64,000 bases of DNA from positions 124,001 through 188,000 of the forward strand of contig JACQZU010000014.1 in the NCBI GenBank assembly GCA_016213735.1. Direction: 5' to 3'. The notes under the pieces were generated by a model. The model ran no database searches. It was not told the origin of the DNA and worked only from the letters and a program-made list of their open reading frames with translations. Each line of letters begins with the position of its first letter. The stretch's first letter is position 1. The position numbers were made by a program, and so were the translations under genes. Positions 19,291 to 27,819 of the stretch are shown in pieces. The DNA comes from Acidobacteriota bacterium. Its GTDB lineage: Bacteria > Acidobacteriota > Holophagae > Holophagales > Holophagaceae.

Positions 19291-19553
19291 CCCGGCCACG
19301 TCGCAGATTGCCACAGCCCCAAGGCCCCGCCTCCCTCCCTGCCTCCGGAGGGGAGTCGAATCCTCTCGAAGCTTAAGTTGCCTTTATCAAACAGATGGAT
19401 CGGATCCGCAGGGTCCTCCGAGGGACCAGCGGCCCTTTGGCCCCGCCTTTGCACAAGGCTGGTCGGGACCGCCCCCAAACCTGACCGGACGCGGCGCCCC
19501 CACCCACCTCGCAACCCACGCCGCCCCTTGCGGCCCTTTCACCAGGAGGCGCC

Positions 19554-19832
19554 ATGCGCCGCTCCACCCTTCCTCTGCTCGCCGCCGCGATCTGCTTCGC
19601 GCTGGCCCTGCCCGTCAACGCCAAGATGCCCTTCGTGAAGAAGGCCCAGGAGCTGGGCTTCAAGGACATCAAGAACTGCGCGTCCTGCCACAAGGAGGCC
19701 ATGCCCAAGGCCGCCGCCAAGGGCGAGCCCTACGGAGAGGTGGGCCAGTTCCTGCTCGACACCAAGGCCAAGAAGAAGGCCGCCGAGGTGGACCTCGCCT
19801 GGCTGAAGGACTACAAGCCGAAGGCCCAGTAG
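19554..19832 (+). CDS. Small monoheme c-type cytochrome-like protein
   Basis: A 92-residue exported protein: signal peptide MRRSTLPLLAAAICFALALPVNA, then a 69-residue Lys/Ala-rich mature part with one heme-binding motif, CASCH, near residues 43-47. AGGAGG precedes the ATG. There is no obvious distal Met ligand in a standard position, and the fold is too short for a class I cytochrome, so it may be a minimal electron carrier or a heme-binding peptide. A nearly identical copy at 23110 has Arg in place of the heme His. Confidence 0.8.
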   Translation: MRRSTLPLLAAAICFALALPVNAKMPFVKKAQELGFKDIKNCASCHKEAMPKAAAKGEPYGEVGQFLLDTKAKKKAAEVDLAWLKDYKPKAQ

Positions 19833-19864
19833 CGGCTTGACGATTCCAGACCCGTGGGCGGTTT

Positions 19865-22594
19865 CTACTCGTAGATCTCCGCCGTGGCTACGACCGAGCC
19901 GTCCATGGGGAGGGGGTATCCTCCGGCGAAGAGCACCCTTCCGTCCAGCAACTGGATCCCCTGGTGGTGAAACCTGGGGATCTTCATGGGTGCCCCGAGG
20001 GACCACGTTTCACTCACCGGGTCGAAGATTTCACACCTCGGGTCATCTCCCCAGATGCCAGTGTATCCCCCCGCGGCCAATACTTTTCCATTCCCCAGCA
20101 AGGCCGCGGTCGGGAATTCTCGGCGAAGGCTCATGACCCCGGAGGGCCGGAAACTGTTCGTCACCGGATCAAAAATCTCCGAAGCCAAGATCCAACCGGA
20201 ATAATTTGATCCGCCGGCCACGAGGACCTTCCCATTGGGGAGGAGGACCAGGGCATGCTCCCACCGTGCTTGGGAGGAGTTGGTTGTTGCCGTAAAGGTC
20301 CCCGAAGCCGGATCGTAGATTTCTGCGCCCGGGAAGGGGCCTGAAGCATCCGCTCCTCCGTGGATCAATACTTTTCCATTGGGAAGCAGACAAGCTTGAT
20401 GGCTCTCCCGGGGCCTGGACAGGGAGCCCGTCGAGGACCATGTGCCTGTTGAGGGGTCGTAGATCTCCGCACTGCTCAAATGGACCCCCGCAACGTTGTT
20501 CCACCCGCCGGCGACCAGGACCTTCCCGTTCTGGAGGAGGGTCGCGGAATGATGCACCCGCGGAGTTGCAAGGGTTCCGGTCGGGGTGAAGGCTTGGGTT
20601 CCAGGATCGAACAGCAGGGCAGAGCTTGGTTGCGGGGGCCAGGGGACGGTTACGACCAGGACCTTCCCGTTCTGGAGGGTCGTCGCCGTGGGAACGGACA
20701 TGGGGTACGGAAGAGGCGAGGTTGATTGAAATTGGCCGCTCACGGGGTTGAACATCTCCGCGGCAGCGGTGATGGTTCCACTGGGCCCGGCTTGCCCCCC
20801 AAGGATGAGAACCCGGCCGTCGTTCAATAGGGCCGACGCACCCCAGGTGCGAGGTTCCACCATCCCCCCCGCCAGACTGAATCCACTGTTGACCCTCAGG
20901 ACAGCGTTGGAGCTGAGGACCTGGCTTTCGCTGTCGTCGGTCACCTTTACGCTGAACACCGCACCGTTGTCGCTGAGCACCGTTGGGGGGGTTTTGTATG
21001 AGCTGTCAGTGGCTCCTGGGATGTCGATCGAGTTCCTCCGCCACTGGTAGCTGAGGATTCCCCCGCCGGTTGCTACCACGGAAAAGGTGGCGGAGGCACC
21101 CCGGAAGACCGTTTGGTCCTGAGGGTGCTGGGTGATCACGGGCGGTGGGGAGGTCACCTTCAGGAACAGGGAAACGGAGCCGCTTCCTCCGCTGTTGCTG
21201 GCGGTGACCATGAATTCCGTGGTGGGAGAGGGGAGGAGGGGGGTCCCGAGAATGATGCCGGTGCCCGTGGAGAGGGAGAGACCCGACGGCAACGCGGGCG
21301 AGACTTCCCACCCCAGGGCCGGTCCGCCGGTGTTGCTGGGGATGAGCTGCGCAGGGATTCCGACGGTGAGGTTGTACGACCCGTTCCCATATCCGATGGA
21401 TGGAGGGACGTCATTCACCGTAATGGAAAGGGCGGCTCCGACGGATTCGCCGGAGACACCCAGGCCCGTCACGATGTAGGTGGCCTTGGGCGTCACCATG
21501 GTGGGGATTCCGTTGATCGCCCCGGTGGCGGTATTCAGGACCAAACCGGACGGCAGGGCGGGGGAAACGGCATAGGAGGCGATGGCCCCGCCCGAGCTGC
21601 TGGGCACGTTCGGTTGGACGGGAATCCCCCGGGTGTACACCGCCGGGTTGAAGGAATAGGTCAAACCCTGAGGGGCTGGTTCTACCACCCAAATGCTGAT
21701 CCCCGTGGTACAGGAACCTCCACTGTTGGCAGCGGTGACCACGAAATCCGCTTTTCCGGTCGTGGCGCTGGGGATCCCCGAGATGACTCCGGTTGCGGTG
21801 TGCAGACTCAGCCCGGGGGGAAGTGCCGGGGCCACCGAGTAGGAGGTGGGCTGCCCCCCGCTGGTGGTTGGAATGTTGGGGGGAATGGCCAGGCCTCTCG
21901 TGTACGTGGCGCTGGCCGTGGCATAGGTCAGGCTGGCCGGGGGTTGGTCCACCACCGCCAAGTGGAGAGTGACGCTCGTGCTCCCGCCCGTGTTGGCTCC
22001 GGTGACTGTGTAGGGGAGGTTTGGGGCCACAGCACCGGGCGTGCCCTTGATTGCTCCGCTGGCGGGATCGAGAACGAGCCCGGCGGGGAGCAGCGGCTCC
22101 ACCGAATAGGTGACGATGGTGCCTCCGGAATTGGAGGGAAGGTTCGGAGCGATGGGCACACCTCTCGTATAGATCGCGGGGTTGGTGGCGTAGGCCAGGT
22201 TGTTGGGCGCCTGGTCCCGTACCGTGAGGGTGAGGGTGACGGTCGCGCTGCCGCCGGCGTTGCTCGCGGTGACGAGGTAGGGCGCGCTGGGGGAAGTGAC
22301 CGCAGGTGTTCCCGAAAGCACTCCCGAAGAACCGCTGAAAGAAAGCCCTGCTGGGGGAGCGGGCTGGATCGCGTAGGTGGTGGCCGCGCCTCCGGAGTTG
22401 CTGGGCGCGTTGGGGACGATGGCCTGGCCCCTGGTGTAAACAGCGGGATTGGCGGAATAGACCAGGTTTTGCGGGGCCGGGACCGGGGAGTCTCCCGAGG
22501 CCCCACCTCCGGTTGAACCGCAGGCGGTCAGGGTGGAGACCAAGAGGATGAGGGTCCCCAGGAGGGTCAATGGTGCGAAGGGCCGGATTCTCAT
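19865..22594 (-). CDS. Large kelch / putative-Ig repeat lipoprotein (paralogue 1)
   Basis: A 909-residue predicted surface lipoprotein; signal peptide with lipobox LTAC, then a Gly/Ser linker. About five tandem putative-Ig (He_PIG-like) repeats of 75-80 residues follow, each with YTRG, PPGLSL and GTP-type signatures. Next is one I-set-like Ig domain (ITQHPQDQTVFRG to about residue 590), then seven kelch-like blades, each carrying LLxNGKVLVAGG, that should close a beta-propeller. Such proteins mediate adhesion or substrate binding; no enzyme motif is seen. The ATG at 22594 (AGGAA upstream) is preferred to 22678 because the signal peptide starts there. The domain order matches the protein at 25010-27736 throughout. 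Confidence 0.82.
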   Translation of the reverse strand: MRIRPFAPLTLLGTLILLVSTLTACGSTGGGASGDSPVPAPQNLVYSANPAVYTRGQAIVPNAPSNSGGAATTYAIQPAPPAGLSFSGSSGVLSGTPAVTSPSAPYLVTASNAGGSATVTLTLTVRDQAPNNLAYATNPAIYTRGVPIAPNLPSNSGGTIVTYSVEPLLPAGLVLDPASGAIKGTPGAVAPNLPYTVTGANTGGSTSVTLHLAVVDQPPASLTYATASATYTRGLAIPPNIPTTSGGQPTSYSVAPALPPGLSLHTATGVISGIPSATTGKADFVVTAANSGGSCTTGISIWVVEPAPQGLTYSFNPAVYTRGIPVQPNVPSSSGGAIASYAVSPALPSGLVLNTATGAINGIPTMVTPKATYIVTGLGVSGESVGAALSITVNDVPPSIGYGNGSYNLTVGIPAQLIPSNTGGPALGWEVSPALPSGLSLSTGTGIILGTPLLPSPTTEFMVTASNSGGSGSVSLFLKVTSPPPVITQHPQDQTVFRGASATFSVVATGGGILSYQWRRNSIDIPGATDSSYKTPPTVLSDNGAVFSVKVTDDSESQVLSSNAVLRVNSGFSLAGGMVEPRTWGASALLNDGRVLILGGQAGPSGTITAAAEMFNPVSGQFQSTSPLPYPMSVPTATTLQNGKVLVVTVPWPPQPSSALLFDPGTQAFTPTGTLATPRVHHSATLLQNGKVLVAGGWNNVAGVHLSSAEIYDPSTGTWSSTGSLSRPRESHQACLLPNGKVLIHGGADASGPFPGAEIYDPASGTFTATTNSSQARWEHALVLLPNGKVLVAGGSNYSGWILASEIFDPVTNSFRPSGVMSLRREFPTAALLGNGKVLAAGGYTGIWGDDPRCEIFDPVSETWSLGAPMKIPRFHHQGIQLLDGRVLFAGGYPLPMDGSVVATAEIYE

Positions 22595-23109
22595 GAGATT
22601 CCTGAGTGTTGCGGACAGGGCCTGGATTCCTGCCGGGATGTCGATTCGAAGGGGATGTCGGGATAGGGAATTCTCCAATAACCATTATTGAAAATCAATT
22701 TTTCAAGAATTCACCATGGAAGAGGTTCCTGGAGCCAGGTTTCCCGCAGGGCTCGCGGACCTCATTCAGAGGGGGACTTTGGCTTTCCACACGGGGTCTT
22801 CGGGCCAATCCTGCCAAGGGGGGCTTTTCGGCGGCACCGCCCGCCCCAGCGCCGCAGCCCCGGAGGAAACCGAGGTGGCGTTCCGGGGTGGGGAGGGACG
22901 CTCAGAGGCCCCCCTGGTGGGGCAAGGGCCCTGCGGAGACGGAGGCACGGGTTCCCCCGGTTTACGGCCAGAGCCTCCGCCCTTTCGCTCAAGGATGGTC
23001 CCTCGATTGGATATGGAAGCCTCCCCCTCCGGGCGTCAGGGCGAGGGCCTGAGGTGGGTGGGCGACGGCGGCTCCGATCCCAACGGAGAGGAAACGGCGG
23101 GTTCATGGC
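22595..23109. other. 515-bp intergenic region with AT-rich promoter for kelch gene 1
   Basis: Bases 22670-22715 are AT-rich and hold a Fur-box-like palindrome plus a second inverted repeat, TTGAAAA-TCAAT-TTTTCAA (22688-22706); this is the likely promoter of the minus-strand kelch gene. The remainder (about 22716-23109) is GC-rich. Reading frames there show no family resemblance or ribosome site, so I see no gene in it. Confidence 0.5.
22676..22690. promoter_or_regulatory. Fur-box-like palindrome before kelch gene 1
   Basis: CAATAACCATTATTG is a palindrome (CAATAA-CCA-TTATTG) about 80 bp before the start codon. It matches 10 of 15 positions of the 7-1-7 Fur box TGATAATNATTATCA. A better match sits at the equivalent place before the second kelch gene. 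Confidence 0.4.
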
Positions 23110-23400
23110 GTGACAGGGGCCCGCCGCTCCACCCTTCCTCTGCTCGCCGCCGCGATCTGCTTCGCGTTGGCCCTGCCCGTCAACGCCAGGATGCCCTTCG
23201 TGAAGAAGGCCCAGGAACTGGGCTTCAAGGACATCAAGAACTGCGCGTCCTGCCGCAAGGAGGCCATGCCCAAGGCCGCCGCCAAGGGCGAGCCTTACGG
23301 CGAGGTGGGCCAGTTCCTGCTCGACACCAAGGCCAAGAAGAAGGCCGCCGAGGTGGACCTCGCCTGGCTCAAGGACTACAAGCCGAAAGCGGGTTCGTAA
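23110..23400 (+). pseudogene. Copy of the monoheme cytochrome gene with heme-ligand His changed to Arg
   Basis: A 266-bp block (23122-23387) matches 19557-19822 at 259 positions by hand alignment. The copy begins just after the original start codon and ends before the original stop, so it lost the original ATG, ribosome site and last residues. It can be read from GTG 23110 (MTGARRSTLP..., 96 residues) but has only weak Shine-Dalgarno potential. The heme motif is CASCR instead of CASCH, caused by CAC to CGC, which should prevent normal c-type heme ligation. Of seven changes, five are silent. A strong terminator follows. Either a decaying copy or a non-heme variant. Confidence 0.7.
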
Positions 23401-23422: not shown

Positions 23423-23446
23423 GGGGCCCGGAAAGGGCCCCTTTTT
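23423..23446 (+). terminator. Rho-independent terminator after cytochrome copy
   Basis: GGGGCCC-GGAAA-GGGCCCC forms a 7-bp GC stem with a 5-base loop, directly followed by TTTTT. It begins 22 bp after the stop codon of the copied cytochrome gene. Confidence 0.85.
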
Positions 23447-23629
23447 CATGAAGGGACACCGTGACCTACCCATTCGAAGCCCTGCGCCGAGGGCTCTCCA
23501 TCCTCCGGAAGGGCGGAAGACTCTGAGGCGAGAGGGGGCTCCGCTTGGAATTGAAATTTTCATAAATTCTATCCTTTGCGTGTTCTTGGGCCAGGACTAA
23601 GCTGGTGCGGACTTCCGGGAGGTTCGACC

Positions 23630-24172
23630 GTGTTTCGACGCCATGCATCGGCCCTCTTCGCCCATCTTTTCGCGTTCCTGGCGCTGCTGGGGGCCCTGGC
23701 CTGCACGGAGGACCTCCGCGGGAAGCAACCTCCCCAGGCGTCCTACACCCACGAACCCGTCCTGATGACCTACGAAGAGCTGCGGTCCTCCTTCGCGGTG
23801 CAGGGCCCCCGGGACATCGTCAAGAACGGGAAGATCCTGCGCTTCGGCGACCTGCTCTTCGTCACCGAGCGCTACGAGGGCATCCACGTGATCGACAACG
23901 CCGACCCCGCGCACCCGGCGCCCAAGGCCTTCCTGCGGATCCCGGGCACGGTGGACATGGCCTGCAGGGACGGCGTGCTGTACGCGGACAACACGGTGGA
24001 CCTGCTCGCCATCGAGATCACGGGGACCCCCATGCGGGTGCTGAAGCGCATGGAATGGGCCTTCCCCTGGGACCCCTACCAGGCCGTGGACGATCCCCGG
24101 GTGACCTTCCCCTGGGACGTCTACGCCTGGCAGAGCCGGGGCGTCGTCGTCGGCGCCCGGCCGAGGAGTTGA
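23630..24172 (+). CDS. LVIVD-repeat lipoprotein (first of pair)
   Basis: A 180-residue predicted lipoprotein starting at GTG 23630 with GGGAGG upstream; the lipobox is LGALAC. The mature part contains LVIVD-type propeller units such as LLFVTERYEGIHVIDNADP and LYADNTVDLLAIEI. LVIVD proteins are surface-associated beta-propeller fragments of unknown function, common in bacteria with large secretomes. It is followed after 3 bp by a second LVIVD gene, so the two are cotranscribed and may act together. An AT-rich stretch at 23550-23580 is the likely promoter. Confidence 0.75.
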   Translation: MFRRHASALFAHLFAFLALLGALACTEDLRGKQPPQASYTHEPVLMTYEELRSSFAVQGPRDIVKNGKILRFGDLLFVTERYEGIHVIDNADPAHPAPKAFLRIPGTVDMACRDGVLYADNTVDLLAIEITGTPMRVLKRMEWAFPWDPYQAVDDPRVTFPWDVYAWQSRGVVVGARPRS

Positions 24173-24175
24173 GCC

Positions 24176-24925
24176 ATGACCATTGGAACGCGCCTTCGTG
24201 GATGGGCCACCGCCGCGGCCCTGATCGTCGCTTCGAGCTGCGGGGGAGGCGGCAGCAGCGGCGGCTCCGCTTCCGGTTCGCCCCCCAGCACCGGCACCCC
24301 CGGCAGCCTTTCGCGCTTCGCCATCGTGGGGGACCGCCTCTACACCGTGGGCAAGAGCGAGCTCCAGAGTTTCGACATCCGCCGGCCCTGGGACCCGGTC
24401 AAGAAGGGCATCGCCTGGGTCGGGTGGAACATCGAGACCCTCGGCGGCCACGAGAACCTGCTGCTCATCGGCTCGTCGGACGGCCTGTACATCTTCGACA
24501 CCGCCAACCCGGACCAGCCCCAGCGAAGGGGCCGTCTCCTCCACGCCACCGCCCGGGATCCCGTGGTGGCCCAGGGCGGCACCGCCTACCTCACCCTTTC
24601 GGGCACGATCAACCAGCTGGACGTCATCGACATCCAGGACCCCTCGGCCCCCCGCCTGCTGCGCTCCTACCCCATGCGGCGCCCCCAGGGCCTGGGCCTG
24701 GACGGGAAGCACCTCTTCCTGTGCGACGGCGAGGACGGCCTCAAGGTCTTCGACGCCACCGATCCCATGGACCTCAAGCAGGTGGACCGCGTGCCCGGCC
24801 TCCTGCCCCGGGACCTCATCGCCGCCGACCAGCTGCTGGTCACCACCACCCAGATCGGCGTTTTCCAATACAGCTACGCCAGCCTGCCCCTGCGCTTCCT
24901 GAGCCAACTGGGCTACCGCCGCTAG
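24176..24925 (+). CDS. LVIVD-repeat lipoprotein (second of pair)
   Basis: A 249-residue lipoprotein (lipobox-like VASSC, then a Gly/Ser linker) built of about five propeller-like units, e.g. LLLIGSSDGLYIFDTANPDQP, INQLDVIDIQDPSAPRLL and LFLCDGEDGLKVFDATDP. This is the LVIVD repeat pattern. It starts 3 bp after the previous stop codon with GAGGAG as ribosome site. Together the two genes could supply one complete beta-propeller. They lie between the cytochrome copy and the second kelch gene, so this pair interrupts an otherwise repeated arrangement. No enzyme motif. Confidence 0.78.
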   Translation: MTIGTRLRGWATAAALIVASSCGGGGSSGGSASGSPPSTGTPGSLSRFAIVGDRLYTVGKSELQSFDIRRPWDPVKKGIAWVGWNIETLGGHENLLLIGSSDGLYIFDTANPDQPQRRGRLLHATARDPVVAQGGTAYLTLSGTINQLDVIDIQDPSAPRLLRSYPMRRPQGLGLDGKHLFLCDGEDGLKVFDATDPMDLKQVDRVPGLLPRDLIAADQLLVTTTQIGVFQYSYASLPLRFLSQLGYRR

Positions 24926-25009: not shown

Positions 25010-27736
25010 TCATTCGTAGATTTCCGCCTTCGCAACGATGGGTCCCGAAACAGGCAAGAAATACCCTCCTGCGAATAGCACACGCCCATCCTTCAGCAGG
25101 ATCCCCTGGTGGGCAAACCGAGGGACCACCATGGGTGCGCCCAGGGTCCAATTCCCGGTGGCGGGGTCCCAAACCTCACACCGGGGATCATCCCCTGAGT
25201 TGCCGACGAATCCCCCTGCCGCGAGGACTTTCCCATCTCCCAGGTGCACTGAGGTCAGGCTGGCCCTCGGGAGGTTCATGGCTCCTGAGGTCTGGAAACT
25301 GTTGCTCGCCGGGTCGTAGAGCTGGGAGACGAAGACCGGCCAGCCTGAATTGGAACCGCCCACCACGAGGACTTTTCCGTTGGGCAGCGGGACCAGTGCG
25401 TGGCAATCCCGGGGCCCTGGCACATTGGCCGTTGGAGCAAAGGTACCAGTCCCCGGGTCGTAGACCTCCGCCTCGGGAATCATGGGACCATTTCGGTTTC
25501 CGCCATGGATCAGCACCTTTCCGTTGGGTAGAAGGCAGGCGGCATGGTCTTTCCGGATGCCACCCAGGTTTCCGGTCAGGGTCCAGCTTCCCGTGGTGGG
25601 GTCGTAGATCTCCGCGCTGCCCAGCATGGCCCCGCTTGGGACTGAGACGCCCCCGGCAACCAGGACCTTTCCATTGGCAAGAAGGGTCGCGGAGTGATGG
25701 GTCCGGGGGGCGTGAAGGCTCCCTGTGGGCGCAAAGGTTTCACTGCCAGGGTCCCAAAGCAGGGCGGAGGGTTCGGAGGGGATGAATGGGACGGAGACGA
25801 CCAGCACTTTGCCGTTGGGAAGGAGGGTCGCCGTGGGTGTGCTCGCCGGAAAGGGAAGGGGGTTCGTGGACCGGAACTGGCCGGTCGCCGGGTTGAAAAT
25901 CTCCGCGAAGGCTATGAGCTCCGTTTCCGTCTGGCCCCCGAGGATGAGGATCTGGCCGTTGTCCAGCAGGACCGAGGCGCCCCATGTCCTGGGCGTCACC
26001 ATCGTTCCCGAGGTCGTGAAGGCTCTTTGGACCCTCAGGAGCGCCCGGGTGCTGGGTGTGCTCCCACCGTAGGAATCCGATACCGCCACGCTGAAAAACG
26101 CATTGTCGTCCCCCAGGACCGTGGCGGGAGTGGTGTAAGAGGTGCCCGTGGCTCCCGGAATGTCGGCCCCGTTCTTGCGCCACTGGAAGCTGAGGGGTCC
26201 CGTGCCGGTGGCGGCCACGGAAAAGGTGGCCTTCGTTCCGCGGTATACCAACTGGTCCTGGGGCTGCTGGGTGATGGCCGGCGGTTGTGGGTTGACCTTC
26301 AGGTACAAGGAAACGGATCCGCTCCCGCCGCTGTTGGTGGCGGTCACCATGCGCTCCTGCGTCCCGGCCATGTCGGTCGGTGTCCCGGAGATCAGGCCCG
26401 AGGTGGGGGACAGGGAGAGTCCCAGGGGAAGGGCTGGGGACACGCTCCATGCCAAAGCCGTCCCTCCGGTGTTGGTCGGGGTCAGATGGACCGGGACGCC
26501 CACAGTGAACGTGAAGGACCCGCTCCCGTACCCGATGGAAGGTGGGATGTCATTCACCGTGATGGACAAGGCCGCGCCAACGCTTTCCCCCGAGATCCCA
26601 AGGCCCGTCACCAGGTAATTGGCCTGGGGGAAGACCGCGGTGGGTATTCCAGTGATCACCCCGGTGGTGGGGTGCAGGGCGAGACCTGTGGGCAGGGGCG
26701 GGGACACGGAGAAGGACGCGATGGCGCCGCCGGAACTGGTGGGCAGATTGGGTGAAATCGGCATACCCCGGGTGTACACCGCCGGATTGGCGGAATAGGT
26801 CAGCCCCTGGGGGGCAGGTTCTCCGATCCGGATCTGGATCCCTGTGCTGCAAGAGCCGCCGCTGTTGCTGGCGGTAACCGTGAAAAGGGAGGTTCCGGTT
26901 ACAGCGGTGGGGGTGCCCGTGATCACCCCGGAAGAGGCATGGAGGCTGAGGCCCCCCGGGAGTGCGGGCTGGACGGAGAAGGAAGTCGGCTGGCCCCCCG
27001 TGGTGCTCGGGAGGTTGGGCACAATGGGGACCCCCCGCGTGTAGCTGGCGCTGGGTGTGCTGTAGGCGAGGTTGGCCGGAGCCTGATCCACAACGGTCAG
27101 TTGGAGCGTTGTGCTGGTGCTCCCCCCGGAATTGGAGCCGGTGACCGTGAAGGGGGCGCTGGGACTCACCCCTGAAGGCGTTCCGGTGATCCCTCCCCTG
27201 GTCGGATCCAGGAAAAGCCCCGGGGGCAGGGCCGGGTCCACGGAATAGGTCACGATGGCCCCTCCGGCGTTGGACGGGATGTTGGGGGGAATGGGGGTGC
27301 CCTTGGTATAGGTCGCGGGGTTGCTGGTGTAGGAAAGCTCGGTGGGCGGAAGGTCACGGACCGTAAAGGTGAGCGATGCGGTCGCGGTTCCCCCGGCGTT
27401 GATGGCGGTGATCAGGTAGGCCTGCGTGGGGGCGGGGACGACCGGAGTGCCCGAGAGGATTCCTGAGCTAGGGCTGAAGGAGAGCCCTGCAGGGGGAGAG
27501 GGCTGGATCGAGTAGGCGGCGACCGGACCTCCCGTGCTGCTGGGCATATTGGGCGGGATGGCCTGGCCCTTGGTGTAAATGGCGGGATTGGCCGAATACG
27601 AGAGGTTTTGCGGAGAGGAAACTGGAGGTCCCCCTGGGGCGCCGCCCCCGCTGGAACCGCAGCCGCCCAGCCCGGTGACCAGGAAAGAGAGGAGGGCAAA
27701 GCAGAGAAACCGTTGGGGATTAGGGGTGATTCGCAT
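25010..27736 (-). CDS. Large kelch / putative-Ig repeat lipoprotein (paralogue 2)
   Basis: A 908-residue paralogue of the kelch protein at 19865-22594 with the same order. It has a lipoprotein signal (LGGC), about five putative-Ig repeats (YTKG, PPGLSF, SGTP signatures), one I-set-like Ig domain (ITQQPQDQLVYRG), and seven kelch blades with LLPNGKVLVVGG. The ATG at 27736 has AGGAG upstream and places the signal peptide at the start. The two proteins align along their whole length but differ at many residues, including surface loops, so they diverged much earlier than the cytochrome copies beside them. Probably cell-surface adhesion or binding proteins; function not proven. Confidence 0.82.
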   Translation of the reverse strand: MRITPNPQRFLCFALLSFLVTGLGGCGSSGGGAPGGPPVSSPQNLSYSANPAIYTKGQAIPPNMPSSTGGPVAAYSIQPSPPAGLSFSPSSGILSGTPVVPAPTQAYLITAINAGGTATASLTFTVRDLPPTELSYTSNPATYTKGTPIPPNIPSNAGGAIVTYSVDPALPPGLFLDPTRGGITGTPSGVSPSAPFTVTGSNSGGSTSTTLQLTVVDQAPANLAYSTPSASYTRGVPIVPNLPSTTGGQPTSFSVQPALPGGLSLHASSGVITGTPTAVTGTSLFTVTASNSGGSCSTGIQIRIGEPAPQGLTYSANPAVYTRGMPISPNLPTSSGGAIASFSVSPPLPTGLALHPTTGVITGIPTAVFPQANYLVTGLGISGESVGAALSITVNDIPPSIGYGSGSFTFTVGVPVHLTPTNTGGTALAWSVSPALPLGLSLSPTSGLISGTPTDMAGTQERMVTATNSGGSGSVSLYLKVNPQPPAITQQPQDQLVYRGTKATFSVAATGTGPLSFQWRKNGADIPGATGTSYTTPATVLGDDNAFFSVAVSDSYGGSTPSTRALLRVQRAFTTSGTMVTPRTWGASVLLDNGQILILGGQTETELIAFAEIFNPATGQFRSTNPLPFPASTPTATLLPNGKVLVVSVPFIPSEPSALLWDPGSETFAPTGSLHAPRTHHSATLLANGKVLVAGGVSVPSGAMLGSAEIYDPTTGSWTLTGNLGGIRKDHAACLLPNGKVLIHGGNRNGPMIPEAEVYDPGTGTFAPTANVPGPRDCHALVPLPNGKVLVVGGSNSGWPVFVSQLYDPASNSFQTSGAMNLPRASLTSVHLGDGKVLAAGGFVGNSGDDPRCEVWDPATGNWTLGAPMVVPRFAHQGILLKDGRVLFAGGYFLPVSGPIVAKAEIYE

Positions 27737-27819
27737 GGGGCTCCTGGCCGGCCGGGTTCGCACGAGTTCTACGGGCGGGGAGATTCAGGTTTTTGAGGTC
27801 AGGCAAGGAAAGAAAAATT

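Follow-up and report, generated by a model that had tools for sequence, protein, structure and literature searches.

A near-identical second copy of an exported monoheme protein gene in a Holophagaceae genome has lost its heme motif and start signals and is most likely an early pseudogene

A draft Holophagaceae genome of 28 contigs carries a gene for a small exported protein twice, and the second copy reads CASCR where the first has the c-type heme motif CASCH. The two copies share their orientation, lie 3,565 bp from each other on one 493-kb contig, and are the only ones in the genome. The initial annotation offered three readings of copy 2: a decaying copy, a donor for gene conversion, or a heme-free partner that competes with copy 1. 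The question is which of these fits best. We analysed a 64,000-nt stretch of the contig (the window), and positions are counted from its first letter. The features are:

19495 to 19553, plus strand: leader of copy 1 with SD (AGGAGG), assigned by its by-eye likeness to the pre-SD leaders of relatives.
19554 to 19832, plus strand: copy 1, intact gene for a 92-aa exported single-heme (CASCH) protein, assigned by an ATG with SD and by homology.
19826 to 23121, no strand assigned: intervening block of 3.3 kb, a minus-strand kelch/Ig gene (~19865-22594) and ~0.5 kb without a clear gene.
23110 to 23400, plus strand: frame of copy 2, open for 96 aa when read from GTG 23110, a doubtful start that has no GGAGG nearby.
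23122 to 23390, plus strand: copied block, 97% identical to 19557-19825, with CASCR at 23242-23256.
23423 to 23446, plus strand: intrinsic terminator after copy 2, with stem GGGGCCC/GGGCCCC, loop GGAAA and five T.

A repeat search of the window returned one repeat pair, 19557-19825 and 23122-23390 (269 nt, 97%). The block of copy 2 is identical to copy 1 at 261 of 269 positions, with eight substitutions and no indels; the 259/266 given initially is the same alignment, ended three bases sooner. Six substitutions are silent (copy 1 to copy 2: CTG to TTG at L17, GAG to GAA at E33, CCC to CCT at P59, GGA to GGC at G61, CTG to CTC at L84, and AAG to AAA at K90). The other two are missense, AAG to AGG (K24R) and CAC to CGC (H46R), which bears out the earlier description of mostly silent changes with two amino-acid changes, one of them at the heme ligand. 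Specifically, H46R turns CASCH into CASCR and removes the heme-ligand His from copy 2. The two proteins are ~96% identical.

The identity begins exactly at codon 2 of copy 1, as first described, and ends ~2 codons short of its stop. Within 60 nt of the copies the flanks have no similarity above chance, and a weak 28-nt match lies farther upstream (p ~0.01 against mononucleotide shuffles). No flank of copy 2 repeats any flank of copy 1, and on this ground we set aside a tandem duplication that simply took in a longer segment. The block had been called oddly gene-shaped. Its coding-only edges are less odd than that, because conversion between paralogs with unrelated flanks leaves such a block, but the loss of exactly the ATG stays odd.

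Copy 1 has the AGGAGG four bases ahead of its ATG, with a duplex energy of −10.3 kcal/mol, and its protein is 61-70% identical to the copies in the closest relatives. The leader of copy 1 has a profile score of 3.2 bits, barely over the best random window (3.1), and the profiles of relatives' leaders and 3' regions are too weak to classify either flank. No intrinsic terminator was found after copy 1; the convergent kelch/Ig gene ends 33 bp past it. This gene of the intervening block has Pfam He_PIG and Kelch matches, and the block matches a second kelch gene (25010-27763) at 69% nt identity, with no other large match genome-wide. The two genes, both on the minus strand, are paralogous He_PIG/Ig plus kelch lipoprotein-like genes, and they flank copy 2 together with a gene pair at 23605-24925, the second of which has a borderline LVIVD repeat match.

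No Pfam or NCBIfam model matched either copy above cut-off. The gene was found in 39 of 80 relatives by single-sequence search and in 61 of 77 same-family genomes by profile search. Most of these matches, with duplicates removed, gave 92 distinct copies, from family genomes plus one from another family. The encoded proteins have a signal peptide, judged by eye, a mature part of ~60-70 aa and one heme motif, and the invariant columns include both Cys. CxxCH is present in 91 of the 92 distinct copies, and copy 2 (CxxCR) is the sole exception. Copy 1 is a full member of this unnamed Holophagaceae family of tandem exported single-CxxCH proteins; it has the signal peptide, CxxCH and the C-terminal KAxxKAxEVDxxWLKDY. 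Copy 2 has the signal peptide and the C-terminal motif but not CxxCH and, judged from its sequence, is a homolog in which the cofactor motif has been lost.

The AlphaFold model of the protein has moderate confidence (mean pLDDT 74). PDB sequence and fold searches, the latter with this weak model, gave no significant match to a solved cytochrome. An electron-transfer role of the family would follow from the heme motif only.

Could the CASCR form still bind heme covalently? NrfA is a multiheme enzyme whose CxxCK motif is matured by a dedicated lyase. Copy 2 is like NrfA in that Lys or Arg replaces the His after CxxC; it differs in that NrfA has multiple hemes and a dedicated lyase, whereas no dedicated lyase is linked to copy 2. 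The genome has two separate CcsA/ResB (System II) loci (genome G000, contigs C1 and C15; L056, L057, L066, L067), and CcmE was not detected in it. Purified CcsBA attached no heme to any peptide with a substituted His (A, M, K) that was tried (PMC8112865). CXXCR failed with HCCS (PMC4158909) and, as cited there, with Ccm; a plasmid-expressed yeast CXXCR has been reported (PMC4158909). Covalent heme on copy 2 is thus very unlikely, given System II without CcmE and the published failures with CcsBA, HCCS and Ccm. A dedicated synthase that matures CxxCR, with Arg or a distal residue ligating the heme, could be imagined from the presence of two CcsA/ResB loci, but two System II loci require no such explanation and the motif occurs in no relative; we consider this extremely improbable.

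The start of copy 2 has also changed. Relatives usually carry an SD (GGAGG or similar) and an ATG immediately ahead of codon 2 (Arg or Lys). In the leaders of one genus (L009, L013, L016, L018, L021 and similar), a short GTCCCGC-loop-GCGGGAC hairpin recurs immediately 5' of the SD, some 20-45 nt ahead of the ATG, and leader regulation by this hairpin is possible. Copy 2 alone has CxxCR, and it has no SD-ATG at the usual site; its sole in-frame start is GTG 23110. The nearest purine-rich stretch, GGAGAGGA, ends 17 nt ahead of this GTG. The anti-SD duplex energy at GTG 23110 is −6.0 kcal/mol, a value that 20% of random 13-mers drawn from the window also reach, and it is inside the range of 44 relatives (median −9.5 kcal/mol, range −13.1 to −3.7). 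A mini-frame, ATG-GCG-TGA (23105-23113), overlaps the GTG, and reinitiation there is conceivable. The frame of copy 2 is intact and retains a usable signal peptide. A sigma-70 promoter scan found no site for copy 2, and none for copy 1 either.

The intrinsic terminator after copy 2 was missed by the consensus scan. The copy had been said to keep a strong terminator; the terminator exists, but it lies beyond the end of the copied block, and nothing like it stands at copy 1. The flanking signals are one-sided, with the SD before copy 1 and the terminator after copy 2.

A base-calling or assembly error in a draft genome could in principle have produced the CGC, as a single base decides the motif. 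However, the seven further differences show that the two copies were resolved, and a copy 2 that truly encoded CASCH would still be without SD-ATG. Such an error is therefore quite improbable.

Missense changes are fewer than neutrality predicts. Two missense changes out of eight compare with ~69-76% expected without selection (P ~0.004-0.013; 0.011-0.033 if 2/7 is counted instead). This suggests that selection acted for part of the history, or else that a diverged allele gave rise to copy 2. By comparison with relatives, K24R, H46R, TTG at L17 and AAA at K90 occurred on the copy 2 branch. The missense deficit may come partly from purifying selection on copy 1 itself, but those changes that can be clearly polarised belong to copy 2. 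The simplest fit would be a functional period or a diverged-allele origin, followed by recent decay of copy 2.

The mostly silent changes, together with the open frame, the retained signal peptide and the terminator, also speak for a rival reading, in which translation starts at GTG 23110, perhaps through reinitiation, and the heme-free product acts with copy 1 or competes with it, for instance by taking up the heme synthase. Peptide analogs do inhibit cytochrome c biogenesis (PMC8112865). Against this stand the poor start site, the lack of a sigma-70 promoter-like site (shared with copy 1) and the lack of a CxxCR paralog in any relative, which make this reading unlikely. A functional heme-free twin is possible at long odds, and an expressed, exported twin, heme-free by design and tuning the maturation or electron transfer of the heme-bearing copy, is highly doubtful. 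None of the other 91 distinct copies is a CxxCR twin, and a literature search on the term found no natural case.

Tandem arrangements recur in the family. Pairs separated by 60-230 nt occur at fourteen loci of relatives, their members 62-92% identical in nucleotide sequence, and the 97% between the copies here is above that range. One locus (L097; G081:C70:36400-38900) has three tandem copies, of which two share 92% nt identity and are separated by 136 nt; at L042 and L046 a more distant family member follows ~2.1 kb after the main copy, each having a terminator of its own. The closest genus (G010, G025, G033) has a leader followed by a and b, which no terminator separates, and then a terminator-like hairpin; these hairpins were read by eye and are below the strict terminator rule. 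The window resembles such a pair whose members have 3.3 kb between them. In half-gene trees of the relatives (supports 48-90 and 44-73), a and b tend to cluster by genome over their 5' halves, and over the 3' halves the b copies cluster by position, which hints at partial conversion between the a and b copies.

The two copies here are 97% identical within the genome and ~70% identical to relatives, all of other genera. Concerted evolution of prokaryotic paralogs (PMC6053082) likewise makes paralogs of one genome far more alike than orthologs; here, in contrast, there are two copies only, one apparently dead, and conversion is plausible. A recent duplication would explain the 97% equally well. 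Conversion, the basis of the earlier donor proposal, is plausible from half-gene groupings of modest support, but these do not reveal which copy would be donor and which recipient. Copy 2 could also serve as a silent cassette that trades sequence with copy 1 and either preserves it or now and then damages it. The identity confined to the coding part and the signs of homogenisation in relatives' tandem pairs are in line with such exchange. However, recent duplication accounts for the identity just as well, the half-gene tree supports are 48-90, no alternative alleles were seen, and a block bounded by direct repeats, as here with 3.3 kb between them, would also be prone to deletion. We regard a silent cassette as unlikely.

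No gene flanking the copies lies near the family gene in 20 relatives' regions, and synteny therefore gives the event no direction. The one other match, in L054 and to a frame antisense to the GTPase gene (28014), was set aside as coincidental.

Of the three readings offered at first, a decaying copy fits best: the start codon and good SD are gone, the universal heme His is gone, and a conserved Lys24 is changed. A pseudogene is recognised by lost expression signals or an inactivating change relative to functional homologs, and copy 2 has such losses. We put the probability at about 0.6 that copy 2 is a second copy of the gene with little or no function, derived from a split tandem pair or from a recent duplication or conversion; its state is most likely that of an early pseudogene. 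Counting against decay are the mere two missense changes in eight, the intact frame, the signal peptide, the remaining terminator, the anti-SD energy within the relatives' range and the absence of neighbouring genes in common with the relatives examined.

In the decay scenario, the 3.3-kb block with the kelch gene would have split an ancestral leader-a-b-terminator pair, or duplication of one gene would have taken place around this block. Copy 1 would have retained the 5' signals and copy 2 the terminator only, and the 97% identity would stem from recent duplication or from gene conversion across the coding part. Copy 2 would later have gathered changes, the loss of the heme-ligand His among them. 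Any product would be exported heme-free and probably degraded.

Copy 2 would have greater importance only if the heme-free form is made. As it stands, the locus offers a clean snapshot of a duplicate whose cofactor site and start signals are being lost at a stage when the coding frame has hardly diverged.
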